A stretch of 40,885 nt of DNA from Methylomonas koyamae (GTDB lineage Bacteria > Pseudomonadota > Gammaproteobacteria > Methylococcales > Methylomonadaceae): assembly GCF_001644025.1 (NCBI RefSeq), contig NZ_LUUK01000064.1, positions 1 to 40,885 of the forward strand. The letters are read 5' to 3'. Positions 5,419 to 11,485 of this stretch are shown here, in pieces; positions within the stretch are counted from its first letter, which is position 1, and each line of letters opens with the position of its first letter. The notes under the pieces were generated by a model, which was not told where the DNA came from, did not search any database, and saw nothing but the letters and a program-made list of their open reading frames with translations. Both the position numbers and the translations under genes were made by a program.

Positions 5419-5493
5419 GTAGTGTTCCCGTTAGACGAAACCAATCCGTGCCGGTATCATGCCGCTCCCAAATCCGCCGACTTTCCAACCCAC

Positions 5494-6777
5494 ATGACCG
5501 AAGCCACCATCACCTGCCCCAATTGCAGCACGCAAGTACCGTTGACCGAGTCGCTGGCCGCGCCGCTGCTCGCCGCCACCCGCAAACAGTTCGAGCAGCA
5601 GTTACAGCAAAAAGACCAAGCCATCGCCCTGCGCGAACAAGGCATCAAGGACCAGGAGAAACAACTGGCCGAAGCCAAGCGCGGCCTGGACGATCAAGTC
5701 GCGCAGCAAGTCGCCAAACAATTACAAGCCGAACGCCAGCGGGTGATCGAGGAAGAAACCCGCAAAGCCAAACAAGCTGCCGCCGCCGAACTGGAGCACA
5801 AAAGCCGGGAACTGGCCGAACTGAACGAAGTCTTGAAAGTCCGCGACGCCAAACTGGCCGAAGCCCAACAAGCCCAAGCCGAGCTGATCAAGAAACAACG
5901 CGAACTGGACGACGCCAAGCGCGAGCTGGAGCTGACCATCGAAAAACGCGTACAAACCAATCTCAACGAAGTGCGCAACCAAGCCAAACGCGAAGCCGAG
6001 GAAGGCCTGAAACTGCGGGTAATGGAAAAAGACCAGACCATCGCCTCCATGCAGCAAAAAATCGAAGAACTGAAACAAAAAGCCGAACAAGGCTCGCAGC
6101 AATTGCAAGGCGAAGTGCAGGAACTGGAGCTGGAAAACCTGCTGCGCGCCAAGTTTCCGTTCGACAACATCGAACCGGTCGCCAAAGGCGAATTCGGCGG
6201 CGACCTGCTGCAACGCGTGGTCGGCGGCTCCGGGCAAGCTGCAGGCAGCATTCTCTGGGAAGCCAAACGCACCAAAAACTGGAGCGACGGCTGGCTGGTG
6301 AAACTGCGCGAAGACCAGCGCAGCGCCAAGGCCGACATCGCCGTGCTGGTCAGCCACGCCCTGCCCAAAGGCGTGGACAGCTTCGACGTCATCGACGGCA
6401 TCTGGGTCACCGCCCCACGCGCCGCCCTGCCGGTCGCCACCGTGCTACGCCACACCCTGCTGGAAGTGGGCATGGCCCGCCTCGCCGCCGAAGGCCAACA
6501 CGGAAAAACCGAGATGGTCTACCAATACCTGACCGGCCCGCGCTTCCGTCACCGGGTGGAAGCCATCGTCGAAGCCTTCTCCACCATGCAGGAAGACCTG
6601 GACAAGGAACGCAAAGCCATCACCAAACAATGGGCCAAACGCGAGGCGCAAATCGAGCGGGTGATGAACGCCACGGTCGGCATGTACGGCGACTTGCAAG
6701 GCATCGCCGGTAAATCGTTACAAGAAATCGAAGGCTTGGAGATGCGGGCGTTGGGGATGGATGATGAGTTGGATTGA
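5494..6777 (+). CDS. DUF2130 coiled-coil protein with PD-(D/E)XK-like motif
   Basis: 427-residue protein. It begins with a CPNC half zinc-ribbon (residues 8-11), then a very long coiled coil (about 30-205) rich in Gln, Glu, Lys and Ala, then a compact domain. That domain shows Glu213 (LELENLL), Asp237 in GEFGGDLLQ, Glu256-x-Lys258 in ILWEAKRTKNW and Gln275 in REDQ, a spacing that resembles the PD-(D/E)XK nuclease fold. A final helical part contains KQWAKREAQIERV. DUF2130 proteins have no settled function; a nuclease role is inferred from the motif only. The start is ATG 5494, since the upstream in-frame extension is not protein-like. It lies 75 bases after mobA and borders the accessory island. 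Confidence 0.85.
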   Translation: MTEATITCPNCSTQVPLTESLAAPLLAATRKQFEQQLQQKDQAIALREQGIKDQEKQLAEAKRGLDDQVAQQVAKQLQAERQRVIEEETRKAKQAAAAELEHKSRELAELNEVLKVRDAKLAEAQQAQAELIKKQRELDDAKRELELTIEKRVQTNLNEVRNQAKREAEEGLKLRVMEKDQTIASMQQKIEELKQKAEQGSQQLQGEVQELELENLLRAKFPFDNIEPVAKGEFGGDLLQRVVGGSGQAAGSILWEAKRTKNWSDGWLVKLREDQRSAKADIAVLVSHALPKGVDSFDVIDGIWVTAPRAALPVATVLRHTLLEVGMARLAAEGQHGKTEMVYQYLTGPRFRHRVEAIVEAFSTMQEDLDKERKAITKQWAKREAQIERVMNATVGMYGDLQGIAGKSLQEIEGLEMRALGMDDELD

Positions 6778-6899: not shown

Positions 6900-7154
6900 A
6901 TGACCGAAGCCATACTCGATATAAAACAATGGGGCAATAACCTGGGCGTACGCCTACCGGCGGCCATTGCCAAAGCCGCCCATATGCACAACCATCAACG
7001 AGTACGGATATCCGTTGAAGATGACAAGGTGATTATCACCCCGTTAGCCGACGAAGCTTTAACGTTGGAACAACGCTTGGCCCGTTTCGACCCCGAGCGG
7101 CACGGCGGCGAAGCCATGGCAACCGCGGAAGCAATCGGTGCCGAACGTTGGTAA
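6900..7154 (+). CDS. mazE: MazE/AbrB-type antitoxin
   Basis: 84-residue antitoxin. The N-terminal half is a swapped-hairpin AbrB DNA-binding domain: ILDIKQWGNNLGVRLPAAIA, then RVRISVEDDKVIITPL. The C-terminal third, with LEQRLARFDPERHGG, is the flexible toxin-blocking tail expected in MazE. Such antitoxins neutralise a MazF ribonuclease and repress their own promoter. A ribosome site AGGGA lies eight bases ahead of the ATG. The downstream mazF reading frame overlaps its end but carries a stop codon, so the antitoxin may now be an orphan. Confidence 0.88.
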   Translation: MTEAILDIKQWGNNLGVRLPAAIAKAAHMHNHQRVRISVEDDKVIITPLADEALTLEQRLARFDPERHGGEAMATAEAIGAERW

Positions 7155-7537
7155 GCCGTAAGCAAACAGCGGCTTGGATACCGGAAAGGCAAGACATCAT
7201 CTGGATCGATTGCAATCCGCAAGTCGGCCAGGAAATGCGCGACATCCATCCGTTTTTGGTGCTCTCTCCGCGCATCTTCAACGAAAAAACCTAGCTGGTG
7301 ATCGGCCTACCGATGACCAGCGCTGCCTACAACGCCGACAATCCGTTTGCCGTAGCGATTGGTAAAGCCGGCGGCCGTAAAGCCGAACAAACCAGTTATG
7401 TGCTCTGCCACCAACCCAAGTCGTTCGACTGGCGCTTGCGCAAAGCCAAACCCCATCCGCTCAAGGTCTTACCTGGCAATTTGTTCGCTCAGGTTTGCGA
7501 GCGGTTGAATCAGATTATTCAGATTGGTTCGGGGTGA
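7148..7537 (+). pseudogene. mazF: mazF toxin interrupted by an in-frame amber codon
   Basis: Reading frame of 129 codons before the terminal TGA, recognisable over its whole length as a MazF-type mRNA interferase. It opens with a VSRK start region, then PERQDIIWIDCNPQ, PFLVLSPRIFNEKT, a stop, VIGLPMTSAAYNADNPF, SYVLCHQPKSFDWRL and a final AQVCERLNQII helix. The only lesion is TAG at 7292-7294, between EKT and LVIGLP; the frame is otherwise intact, with no indel. Ordinary translation would give about 48 residues, lacking most of the catalytic barrel. A downstream fragment could restart at GTG 7298 or ATG 7313. The presumed start TTG 7148 overlaps the end of mazE, as usual for such pairs. A sequencing error is also possible. 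Confidence 0.85.
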
Positions 7538-7672: not shown

Positions 7673-7730
7673 GTATTTAGCTATAGCGCTAAAAATACGT
7701 TAAAATTAACGCACGTTATTTTTAACGTAT
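7673..7730. promoter_or_regulatory. AT-rich operator-like palindromes ahead of the ATPase pair
   Basis: The non-coding stretch 7538-7756 ends in an AT-rich block. It has a perfect 11-base inverted repeat, ATACGTTAAAA at 7695-7705 and TTTTAACGTAT at 7720-7730, 14 bases apart. The motif ACGTTA/TAACG recurs between the arms. An overlapping imperfect pair is GTATTTAGC at 7673-7681 with GCTAAAAATAC at 7688-7698. It lies 26 bases before the first ATPase start, where a repressor or autoregulator would bind. Which protein binds is unknown. Confidence 0.6.
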
Positions 7731-7756: not shown

Positions 7757-8938
7757 ATGAAAGCCAATCCCGGCGGTCAGATCGATTTAAACGAAATCAT
7801 AGGCCGCGATCGCGTCATCGAACAGCTTTGGGAAACCTTGGAGCAGCAATCGATACGCATCAACGCCGAACGCCGCATCGGTAAAACCACCGTCATCAAA
7901 AAACTTTGCGCGTCCCCTAAAGCCGGTTGGGTACCGATTTTCCAGGATTTGGAGCAATACCATAGCGCCATGGATTTCGCCCAAGCGGTTTACCGCGAAG
8001 TCGATGCTTACCTATCGGCTCGGAAGCAGAGCGCGCGACGAGCGAAGGATTTTTGGAAAGCCATCGGCGGTACGGAAATCAAAGGCGTGCTCAAGTTACC
8101 TACCTTTAACGACCAAACGCCTTGGAAGACGTTACTGAGCAAATCGATCGAAGATTTGGTCGTATCCCAACACCAACAAAAGGAGCGGCCTTTGTTGCTT
8201 TGGGACGAAGTGCCGCTGATGTTGCAAAGCATTGCCGCTCGCGAAGGCCAAGCCGCCGCGATGGAAGTATTGGATACCTTGAGAGCACTACGCCAGGAAT
8301 TAGGCGGCCAGGGCTTGCGCATGATCTTGACCGGATCGATCGGCTTTCACCATGTCATTGACAGCCTGAAACAACATGGCTACGCCAATTCGCCGTTAAA
8401 CGATTTATATGCCTTCGAATTGCCGGTTTTGGAGCCCAATTTCGCGCGAGAATTGGCAGAAAAATTGATCGAGGGCGAAAACATCGCCACGTCCGATGCG
8501 GCCATGTCCGCCCAAACCGTCGCCGAACGAGCCGACGGGTTTCCGTTTTACATCCACCACATCGTCAAGGCGGTGAAATTATCCGGACAAGAAGCGACCG
8601 CCGAGGTAATCGACAAGCTAGTCAGCAAACAAATGTTGGATAGCAACGATCCCTGGGAGCTGACGCATTACCGCGACCGAATCTCGACTTATTACGGGGC
8701 CGGTTCCGAAGCAGCCGTTTTAGCGCTGTTGGATAGCATCGCGGTGCGCGACGACACAACGGCGGTCAATACCATACTCCATGAACTGAAAGGTCAAGGC
8801 TTGACCGTGGACAGGGAAGAATTGCTGAAACTGCTGAAAGCGGTCGAACAAGACCACTACCTCGCCAAAGACGAACAAGGCTACCAGTTTCGTTTTCCGT
8901 TGCTGAAACGCTGGTGGCGCTTGTCGCGCGGACTTTAG
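7757..8938 (+). CDS. P-loop ATPase of the archaeal-ATPase/STAND type (gene A of pair)
   Basis: 393-residue cytoplasmic ATPase. The P-loop is the ERRIGKTTV variant at residues 38-46, lacking the usual first Gly, as in many COG1672/ATPase_2 proteins. Walker B is LLLWDE ending in Asp150-Glu151, and LTGSIGF at 191-197 looks like sensor 1. The C-terminal third, with a YYGAGSEAAVLALLDSIA helix and a YQFRFPLLKRWW end, fits the winged-helix tail common in this group. No catalytic effector domain or membrane segment is visible. A GAGG ribosome site lies six bases before the ATG. The next ATPase gene starts nine bases after the stop, so the two form one operon. Relatives occur in defence, plasmid and regulatory settings; the role here is unknown. 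Confidence 0.82.
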   Translation: MKANPGGQIDLNEIIGRDRVIEQLWETLEQQSIRINAERRIGKTTVIKKLCASPKAGWVPIFQDLEQYHSAMDFAQAVYREVDAYLSARKQSARRAKDFWKAIGGTEIKGVLKLPTFNDQTPWKTLLSKSIEDLVVSQHQQKERPLLLWDEVPLMLQSIAAREGQAAAMEVLDTLRALRQELGGQGLRMILTGSIGFHHVIDSLKQHGYANSPLNDLYAFELPVLEPNFARELAEKLIEGENIATSDAAMSAQTVAERADGFPFYIHHIVKAVKLSGQEATAEVIDKLVSKQMLDSNDPWELTHYRDRISTYYGAGSEAAVLALLDSIAVRDDTTAVNTILHELKGQGLTVDREELLKLLKAVEQDHYLAKDEQGYQFRFPLLKRWWRLSRGL

Positions 8939-8947
8939 GAGACGAAG

Positions 8948-11485
8948 ATGAACGAGTCAGCCTTTTTGTCGGTATTCACGCCGAGCCGGACCGCGCCGGA
9001 AGATTTGGAAGCCATCTTCGTTCAGCGCCATGCGCTGCTGGCCGACGCCGTGGAACGGGTTCGGGAAAGCGCCGGCAGCGGCCATAAACATCATCTGTTG
9101 TTCGTCGGCCCCCGCGGCACCGGTAAAAGCCATTTGTTGACCTTATTGGTTCACCGTGCCGGCTCGGACGAAAGCTTGCAACAGTCATTACGGATCGCCT
9201 GGTTGAACGAGGACGAAACCAGCACCACGCTGCTCGAACTGTTGCGCCGCATCTATTTGGCGCTGAGCAAACGCTACCCCGGCGATTACCGCGCGGACGA
9301 CCTGGAACCCATTTACGATTTGGATGCCGAGGCGGCCGAACGGCTGCTGGCAAGCTTATTGTTGGAAAAGCAGGCCGGCAAAACGCTGCTGGTTGCACTG
9401 GAAAACCTGGACGCCTTGTTCGAAGGCCTGGGCAAAACCGGCCAACAGCGCTTGCGCGCCTTTATCCAGGAACATCCGGTGATGACTATCGTCGCTACCG
9501 CCCAACGTTTGGTCGATGATGTGTCCAAGCGTAACAGCACCTTCTTCGGCTTTTTTCAGACCGAAATGCTGGCGATGTTATCGGTGGAAGAAGCCGCCGA
9601 ATTGCTCGGCAAAATCGCCGCGCTCAACCGTCAGGACAAAGCCGCCGCCTTTTTGCGCAGCCCCACCGGCCGTTCGCGGGTGCGGGCCCTGCATCATTTG
9701 TCCGGCGGCAACCATCGGGTTTATCTGGTGCTGTCGCAATTCATTACCGGCGACAACATCAACGCCTTGGTCGACCCCTTCGCCAAAATGGTCGACGAAA
9801 TGACGCCCTACTATCAGGAACGCATCCGCTGGCTGCCGCCGCAACAACGCAAGATCGTCGAATTCTTATGCAGCCGGGAACGGCCGACGCCGGTCAAGGA
9901 TATGGCCCGCCACCTGTTCGCCAGTCAACAAACCATCTCCAGCCAGCTCAAGGATTTGCGGGCAAAAGGCTACGTGCAATCGGCCCAGCGCGGCCGCGAA
10001 TCGCTGTACGAAATTGCCGAACCTTTGATGCGGATTTGCGTGGAAATCAAGGAAAACCAAACGCCCGGCCCGCTACGGCTATTGGTGGATTTTTTACGGG
10101 TTTGGTACGACGGCGTGCAACTCGACGAACGCTTGTCGGCCTGCGGCGAAGGCAGCTTGGCGCGCCATTATTTGCAGGCGGCGATCGATAGAAATTCGGT
10201 TTGGGGTAATTTGCGGGCGCAGTTGTTGGTGGAGGATTTTCGGAGCGAATTGAATGACGAGCAGCGTGAACAATGGATGTCTCTAATAGAAAGCACCGTA
10301 AAACTATCTGAAGAGCTGGCGCTTGCTTGTGGGGAATTAGCCAAAGGAAATCATGAACTAGGGATGAGGTACCTGGAAGAAATATGCCGGGAAACGGACA
10401 AATACTCTCAGCCAGTTATTGAAGCAGCATACGCCATAGCTGCCATTACTTACTTTGAGTTCAATCGGATCGAAGCGGGCATGTTAATGGTGGAACGCCT
10501 GCTTGAATTACCGAATGCATCCGGTGATCTAGTATCGATAGCTCTCAACAGAAGAGGGACTATTTACGAAGAATTGAGCATGCCCGAAAAAGCGCTCAAA
10601 GACTATAGTCACGTAATCGAATTTGGTGATGTTGCACCGGAACAAACTGCAAAAGCGCTTCTTCAACGAGGAAGGATAAAAGGACAAATGGGCGAAATCG
10701 AAGAAGCGCTGAGAGATTTTAATAGCGTTGGCGAATTGCACGACGTTTCGCCGGATTTGATCTCAAGAGCACATTACAGCCGGGGAATAGCATTAAGACT
10801 GTTGGGAGACTTCGCCGACGCGATTGCAGCCAACACAACGGCAATTGAGTTTCCTGAAAAATCGCCTGAGACCCTGGCGAATGCCTTATATAACCGAGGT
10901 TTGCTCTATTCCATGACTGATAGACTTGAAGATGCCGAACGCGATTACGCCACGATTTTAACTATCGATAATCTACCGGATGACTTATCTACGGACGCAC
11001 ATTTCGCTCTGGCATTAGTAAATTTTATGTTAGGACGCTGGAACGTGGGAATGGCAAGACTTGCGGACGGTTTAGGTCAATTAACCGCGAAGAGTCAACC
11101 GGAAGAAGTTCTATTTACAGCCATGGTCGCGTTTGTCTATGCCAGTAGTCTGACGACAGCAGCCCGCAAACAACGCATCGCCGAATTAGCGCAAGTATTC
11201 GAACAACACCACGCATCGACTTACCTCGGCGAAGCCCTAATACACCATCTGGGTTCTATCCACCGAGACCCCAACGAAACGCCTAGCCCCGACAATCTGG
11301 AACAATGGTGCGTGGCTTGGGAAGCCGCCGGCACAAACAGCGAGGCTTTGAAATTACCGCTACGCCTGTTGCGCACCGGCACCGACTTTCTGAAAGCCGG
11401 CGCTCAGGACCGTAGCGTTTTGCTGGACCTGAACCAAGAAGAACGGCAAATTTTGGTTCAGACTTTCGGTCTCGGGGAAGATTAA
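8948..11485 (+). CDS. AAA+/STAND ATPase with winged helix and 38-residue helical repeats (gene B of pair)
   Basis: 845-residue protein with three parts. Residues 20-285 form an AAA+ ATPase resembling Orc1/Cdc6 or STAND types: Walker A GPRGTGKS at 54-61, Walker B-like LLVALENLDAL at 147-157, sensor VATAQ at 182-186. Residues 295-365 form a winged helix (RKIVEFL, then PVKDMARHLFASQQTISSQ, then a GYV...YEI wing). Residues 450-710 are TPR-like helices whose core repeats exactly every 38 residues. This plan is sensing repeats plus ATPase switch plus possible DNA or partner contact, with no enzymatic effector seen. An AGGAGA site overlaps the end of gene A, indicating tight coupling. The repeat part is visibly AT-richer than the front, suggesting a swapped-in sensor. 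Function is not known. Confidence 0.82.
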   Translation: MNESAFLSVFTPSRTAPEDLEAIFVQRHALLADAVERVRESAGSGHKHHLLFVGPRGTGKSHLLTLLVHRAGSDESLQQSLRIAWLNEDETSTTLLELLRRIYLALSKRYPGDYRADDLEPIYDLDAEAAERLLASLLLEKQAGKTLLVALENLDALFEGLGKTGQQRLRAFIQEHPVMTIVATAQRLVDDVSKRNSTFFGFFQTEMLAMLSVEEAAELLGKIAALNRQDKAAAFLRSPTGRSRVRALHHLSGGNHRVYLVLSQFITGDNINALVDPFAKMVDEMTPYYQERIRWLPPQQRKIVEFLCSRERPTPVKDMARHLFASQQTISSQLKDLRAKGYVQSAQRGRESLYEIAEPLMRICVEIKENQTPGPLRLLVDFLRVWYDGVQLDERLSACGEGSLARHYLQAAIDRNSVWGNLRAQLLVEDFRSELNDEQREQWMSLIESTVKLSEELALACGELAKGNHELGMRYLEEICRETDKYSQPVIEAAYAIAAITYFEFNRIEAGMLMVERLLELPNASGDLVSIALNRRGTIYEELSMPEKALKDYSHVIEFGDVAPEQTAKALLQRGRIKGQMGEIEEALRDFNSVGELHDVSPDLISRAHYSRGIALRLLGDFADAIAANTTAIEFPEKSPETLANALYNRGLLYSMTDRLEDAERDYATILTIDNLPDDLSTDAHFALALVNFMLGRWNVGMARLADGLGQLTAKSQPEEVLFTAMVAFVYASSLTTAARKQRIAELAQVFEQHHASTYLGEALIHHLGSIHRDPNETPSPDNLEQWCVAWEAAGTNSEALKLPLRLLRTGTDFLKAGAQDRSVLLDLNQEERQILVQTFGLGED
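10541..11047 (+). repeat. 114-base (38-codon) tandem coding repeats in gene B
   Basis: Cores LNRRG, LLQRG, HYSRG, LYNRG and the weaker HFALA occur at residues 533, 571, 609, 647 and 685 of gene B, each 38 residues apart. Between them run acidic helix pairs of TPR type (A..D... with F, Y or I) and a linker often beginning with Ser-Pro or Pro-Asp. Canonical TPRs are 34 residues, so these are longer units. Confidence 0.72.

Follow-up and report, generated by a model that had tools for sequence, protein, structure and literature searches.

Two adjacent P-loop ATPase genes of Methylomonas koyamae with an apparently exchangeable TPR block and a conserved promoter element: a candidate immune-type sensor

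Two different P-loop ATPases encoded side by side behind one palindromic control region raise the question of whether they form a single device and, if so, what it senses and how it acts. Such a pair, here called A and B, lies in a 40,885-nucleotide stretch of Methylomonas koyamae (assembly GCF_001644025.1, contig NZ_LUUK01000064.1, positions 1 to 40,885 of the forward strand; hereafter the window), and an initial annotation had proposed it as an undescribed operon in which B senses and A acts. On a balance that tips only somewhat its way, we favor the reading that A-B belongs to the accessory genome and works as a self-contained sensor of the STAND/NLR type, built of two subunits, which controls its own expression and most likely serves in defense against phages or mobile elements, and comparison of its relatives suggests that the pair is an unnamed relative of bacterial immune receptors. 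The features concerned are the following (G and L numbers below are our labels for genomes and loci):

7695..7730, no strand assigned: promoter/operator-like element, two tandem ACGT-n9-ACG units (pattern match 7697-7728)
7757..8938, + strand: gene A, encoding a 393-residue P-loop ATPase
8948..11485, + strand: gene B, encoding an 845-residue AAA+/winged helix/TPR protein
8948..9835, + strand: B residues 1-296, AAA+ part, with the P-loop at G54-S61 and the Walker B position at E152-N153
9836..10057, + strand: B residues 297-370, ArsR-like winged helix, with the highest conservation in B
10358..11167, + strand: B residues 471-740, TPR block, apparently replaced in the same-species genome G702
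11168..11482, + strand: B residues 741-845, C-terminal cap without known domain, 92% identical in the same-species genome

An indication of what B does comes from genome G702, which is labelled as the same species and carries A-B at the same place as the window. Between the two the flanking DNA is 94% and A 95.9% identical, and B has 845 residues in both; along B the identity is 95% over residues 1-296, 99% over 297-370, 89% over 371-435 and 80% over 436-470, then falls to 27% in amino acids and 44% in DNA over the TPR block (471-740) and returns to 92% over 741-845. These sharp edges, together with the near-random DNA identity between them, point to replacement of the TPR block rather than slow divergence, and none of the B proteins compared turned out to be a donor. 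Other pairs of relatives change in the same part. The nonsynonymous distance between the window and G013 is 0.06 in the AAA part of B and 0.37 in the TPR part, where synonymous sites are saturated; L030 and L036 are 96% identical in the AAA part and 55% in the TPRs, and L026 and L040, with AAA parts 97% identical, encode B proteins of 923 and 604 residues. The TPR block therefore looks like a swappable sensor, and the suggestion that B senses gains strong support from it. TPRs exchanged under selection, with the ATPase core and the operator held fixed, would fit the pattern of an immune sensor.

Both proteins keep intact P-loops. In A the P-loop reads ERRIGKT and the Walker B motif LLLWDE, and both the RR-GKT residues (39-44) and D150 E151 are invariant in 35 homologues; toward its C-terminus W386 and W387 are invariant as well, and R385 is at least 90% conserved. 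The match of A to Pfam AAA_22 (26.5 bits) falls just below the cut-off of 27, and the winged-helix-like tail that had been proposed for this ATPase finds support in a weak match of its C-terminal part to the MCM winged helix (E 0.02). Among structures, a weak match to 9m0n (E 0.75) was not used, and matches of the A profile to TAL-effector PDB entries (E 4e-11 and 0.0019) cover some 54 positions within highly repetitive proteins and were rejected as chance. The predicted order of B, with an AAA+ domain, a winged helix and TPRs, was confirmed. Its P-loop, GPRGTGKS, is invariant in 32 homologues, and at the Walker B position it has E-N, of which N153 never varies in these 32 sequences, so that B may bind ATP and hydrolyze it poorly. 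An ArsR/MarR-type winged helix at 298-361 matches HTH_5 with 26.9 bits (cut-off 22) and the structures of the ArsR, CzrA and SmtB repressors (E 2e-5), and the mean pairwise identity of this segment (297-370), 64%, is the highest in B. Over the 32 members AAA_16 was found in 29, TPR_2 in 27 and MarR_2 in 20 (E<=1e-4), and the AAA parts are under strong purifying selection. B combines in one chain the P-loop NTPase, winged helix and C-terminal repeats that define a STAND NTPase; weak matches to nSTAND5/6, NACHT and ORC bear on the STAND status of both A and B.

The initial annotation had placed the two genes nine bases apart on one strand, which the open reading frames bear out, and this arrangement is constant. 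A scan of genome contigs gave 39 loci, of which L062 (a B fragment) and L063 (a TPR-only match) were removed; L001, a duplicate of the window, was likewise not used. In each of the 37 contigs that encode the AAA part of B, A lies directly upstream on the same strand, be it complete, broken or truncated where the contig stops, mostly with gaps of -8 to +28 bases. A is broken in five of the 37 (split in L030, L036, L049 and L053, N-terminally cut in L040), and in L046 it is truncated by the contig end. The identities of A and of B residues 1-435 correlate with r=0.97 over 26 loci, a value reached in 0 of 2000 permutations, which indicates that A and B evolve together. Among 369 gammaproteobacterial genomes, 11 have A (E<1e-15) and the identical 11 have B (E<=1e-12), the A cut-off being set post hoc at a gap down to 1e-10 and the B search scoring four candidates per genome. 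Seven of 41 relatives have A, and the same seven have B below 1e-20; in a phylum-wide sample, 6 of 299 genomes have A at 1e-10, with B adjacent in each where it was read. The accessory, patchy distribution that had been expected is thus what we see. Judged from record titles the contigs span at least five phylum-level groups (Gammaproteobacteria, Verrucomicrobia/Opitutia, Planctomycetes, Myxococcales, SAR324 and one acidobacterial name), although many are metagenome bins and individual taxon assignments may be wrong; many copies lie on large chromosomal contigs. No third gene is conserved with the pair, the largest neighbor cluster being common to only 4 of 30 loci.

The palindromic control region noted at the outset likewise stood up. 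In the window it contains an inverted repeat (7695-7711/7714-7730) with 17-nt arms that are 94% complementary, and upstream of A in general there is an element of about 36 bp, made of two tandem units that read roughly ACGTYAWWTTGACGYACGTYAWWTTRACGTAT, which is almost unchanged across phyla. Its score reaches 18-25 of a possible 25 in 35 of the 42 upstream regions, and none of 2100 shuffles exceeds 17; the consensus was derived from these same regions after inspection, and L033 and L046 were excluded because their contigs start there. It is present in 35 of 37 close relatives; of the seven regions without it, five come from a subfamily that is more distant. In a scan that allowed up to 3 mismatches, 18 of 20 whole genomes contain the element, by coordinates at the A-B promoter (G240 and G689 are apparently one genome counted twice); a single match lay elsewhere, in G688 with 3 mismatches, and is what chance would yield, the backward control giving 5 in all. 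The element is found essentially only at A-B. In relatives it contains or overlaps promoter boxes similar to TTGACG-16-TATNNT; the window has TTAACG and TATCAA, so that its promoter should be weaker or different. A loose form of the promoter pattern is absent from the window and occurs upstream of A at 27 of the 37 close loci and at 10 of the 20 distant ones, these being raw counts with no shuffle control. From the 3' end of the element to the start of A there are 8-12 bases in 16 loci and 26-50 in 18, and the shorter spacing would give an mRNA that is leaderless or nearly so; the loci with it include L041, L044, L045, L048, L050, L051 and L058-L061. At distant A-B loci an upstream inverted repeat (p<=0.05) of different sequence occurs in 10 of 20.

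This conservation points to dedicated autoregulation, most likely through the ArsR-like winged helix of B. Since no neighboring gene is widely shared, the protein that binds the element is most likely A or B, and of the two the winged helix of B appears the better candidate, being the most conserved B segment and matching ArsR/CzrA/SmtB structures. In the model that we favor, B would combine a TPR sensor that can be exchanged, an AAA+ switch that binds nucleotide and a winged helix, and A would be its ATPase partner, whose catalytic Walker B is intact. In the resting state A-B, most likely via the B winged helix, would occupy the tandem element that covers its own promoter and keep expression low, that is, act by repression rather than activation. 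A product of an invader, the presumed ligand, would bind the TPRs, the ATPases would switch and the promoter would be released, and the response would be assembly of an A-B hetero-oligomer by which the cell is harmed or arrested. In a bolder and rather doubtful version, the two-subunit NLR-like immune receptor rests on its own promoter with the 36-bp element as part of the off-state, and either a trigger at the TPRs or a disturbance of the DNA complex would both release transcription and arm the oligomer, so that sensing, amplification and response become one step. If the favored reading is true, a widespread immune-type receptor is absent from the defense catalogues used here, and the natural swap seen when two genomes of the same species are compared marks out its sensing part; what bacterial NLR-like TPR sensors recognize, and how a receptor with no recognizable effector acts, would become testable. 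A promoter element kept with its genes across phyla would be unusual too, and it offers a simple handle for further members.

How does the pair compare with known systems? No model in Pfam, NCBIfam, PADLOC or PHROGs names A or B, the matches being to generic domains, and the earlier impression that Avs and other named defense families do not match held in PADLOC and NCBIfam, where no system matched and Avs1b reached 12.7 bits against a cut-off of 1500. PADLOC matches to B are limited to the winged helix, TPR or P-loop. A weak match to BrxC-PglY (E 0.047) covers B residues 49-77; for BREX, no neighbor family common to the loci emerged from general clustering, in which PglZ and PglX were not searched for by name. 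With STAND/NLR-like immune ATPases (NACHT, AP-ATPase, Avs) B shares a nucleotide switch, a winged helix and a repeat sensor at the C-terminus, and its relatives in L066 and L108 exceed the Pfam NACHT cut-off; A-B differs in being two genes with no recognized effector and a dedicated conserved promoter element. Similar to ArsR/SmtB/CzrA repressors it has the winged helix and an operator-like element over its promoter, although in B the helix is embedded between the AAA+ part and the TPRs. The A profile A1 aligns with archaeal-type ATPases (Pfam ATPase_2; PDB 2fna) over 17-262 (E 0.001), a weak likeness given that 2fna is missed by the narrower profile A4, and A differs from them by its constant partner B and its own conserved N-terminus.

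Closest in organization is nSTAND2, a predicted mobile operon of two genes, both encoding STAND-type NTPases that are proposed to assemble into a mixed ring, in which one member has eroded NTP-binding motifs and is fused to a variable effector, most commonly GT4 or HEPN, and both members are defined by a conserved arginine finger (PMC8195603). A-B also consists of two adjacent P-loop ATPase genes; however, the P-loop G-K is invariant in 35 A and 32 B sequences, only the B Walker B is altered (E152-N153), and neither GT4 nor HEPN is among the Pfam matches listed for A-B members. R176 of A is at least 90% conserved and R170 of B invariant, and an arginine-finger role for either would be a guess. 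Because the erosion and the effector are not seen, we do not file A-B under nSTAND2, though its mode of action may be similar. The description of the operon as undescribed therefore stands for the A-B pair and its element, of which open-licence PMC texts gave no account, and less so for the general idea, since two-gene STAND operons with other defining features have been predicted (PMC8195603).

Among other explanations the main rival, itself unlikely, is an addiction or growth-control pair similar to toxin-antitoxin systems, in which one of the ATPases is a toxin held in check by the other and their complex autorepresses, possibly for maintenance of an element rather than sensing of phages. 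By its sequence A-B is a two-gene operon with a conserved operator-like element over its own promoter, which may correspond to the operator of type II systems, and both the accessory distribution and the breaks in A at five of 37 contigs would suit such a pair; yet the sizes and domains are unlike those of known antitoxin-toxin pairs, a simple pair needs no swapped TPR block, and several loci with a broken A keep an intact B. Slightly less probable is a STAND-type transcription regulator similar to MalT or AfsR that senses a ligand through its TPRs and controls host genes as well as its own promoter. An ArsR-like winged helix beside an ATPase and TPRs, and the operator-like element itself, would be expected of it; but bar the one 3-mismatch match the full element (single half-sites were not searched) stands only at the A-B promoter in the 20 genomes, so that a looser regulon may exist, and no neighbor gene is common to more than 4 of 30 loci.

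We consider it improbable that A and B are ORC/Cdc6-like initiators or mobility ATPases whose upstream repeats form a replication or recombination site. The repeats do adjoin the gene, and the B relatives in L110 and L111 exceed the Pfam ORC-CDC6-like cut-off; against this, 27 of 37 loci (the loose pattern, a raw count) have promoter boxes of fixed spacing at the element, no replication or transposition gene is common to the loci, and many copies are chromosomal. Least probable of all is an ordinary housekeeping pair: purifying selection on the AAA parts would agree with it, but the patchy distribution (11 of 369 and 7 of 41 genomes) makes it unlikely, and a TPR block replaced within a species also speaks against it.

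Several observations weigh against the immune-type sensor itself. No effector domain is among the Pfam matches listed for the A or B members scanned, and none was recognized by NCBIfam or PADLOC models, as had been anticipated. No relative of A-B was found in phage records, or in IMG/VR, where there were 11 and 92 pattern matches. Within the close family L047 lacks the element and L057 has it in part; G218 and G687 show none in the whole-genome scan, and a significantly palindromic stretch occurs in only 15 of 37 close upstream regions. G270 has an A-like match (E 1.3e-10) with no adjacent B, and B-like proteins without A occur in four plasmid records. The initial annotation would have given up the operon if homologues were mostly apart; in the genomes searched, every A match below 1e-15 lies directly before B, but these four plasmids keep B from being equally strict. 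In two of them the B-like gene adjoins cyclase or Pycsar genes, and a Methylomonas plasmid has A followed only by a B fragment. In favor of the sensor, the proximity to defense genes that the initial annotation wanted checked was found in part: at 1e-10 there were 45 PADLOC families in 126 flanking proteins (of 225, within a residue limit; 49,076 residues) and 13 in 126 control proteins (of 197; 41,557 residues) from arbitrary places in the carrier genomes, with L044 and L061 left out of the flanking set as near copies of L045. This excess, a difference between raw counts, is modest, refers to families rather than proteins and uses mechanically called reading frames, and only 3 of 10 large flanking proteins examined singly had a PADLOC match, so that a defense role is something we still infer.

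Individual neighborhoods add detail. In keeping with a defense context, on Moraxella pNP7-2 A-B follows qatD and a kinase and lies 11 kb before a gene annotated as an anti-phage dGTPase, and in G013 an nSTAND1 protein adjoins A. After A-B on a Moraxella plasmid (L066, 7122-14229) a gene for 1248 residues without Pfam match and an NPHP3_N (STAND-like) gene follow on the same strand; both are absent after B in the related plasmid L070. A gene for 1297 residues after B in L071 was considered as the effector of the system and ruled out, being a DUF3418 helicase, and L072 has a gene of the same length there. Upstream of A in the window, the flanking mazEF had been called broken: the MazF-like frame (6900-7537) indeed carries one in-frame stop, and G702 has an uninterrupted 129-residue frame after MazE (L172, 8132-8766), though the names MazE and MazF are tentative. 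The window gene at 5422-6777, which we take to be DUF2130-like, is also near A-B in G013 (L075, 7198-12391), in opposite orientation. Since G005 (L176) has the DUF2130-like gene and MazE and lacks A-B, this place may be an insertion hotspot. In the isolate genome of Methylotetracoccus oryzae (L040, 6700-9812) A has lost its N-terminus and B most of its TPRs, although the AAA part is 97% identical to that of the Methylolobus copy; this copy is decaying. Finally, a Mycobacterium avium plasmid (L069, 7653-10345) encodes a short B-like protein, an ATPase with a MarR-like helix and no TPR, and a serine/threonine kinase gene lies directly after it.

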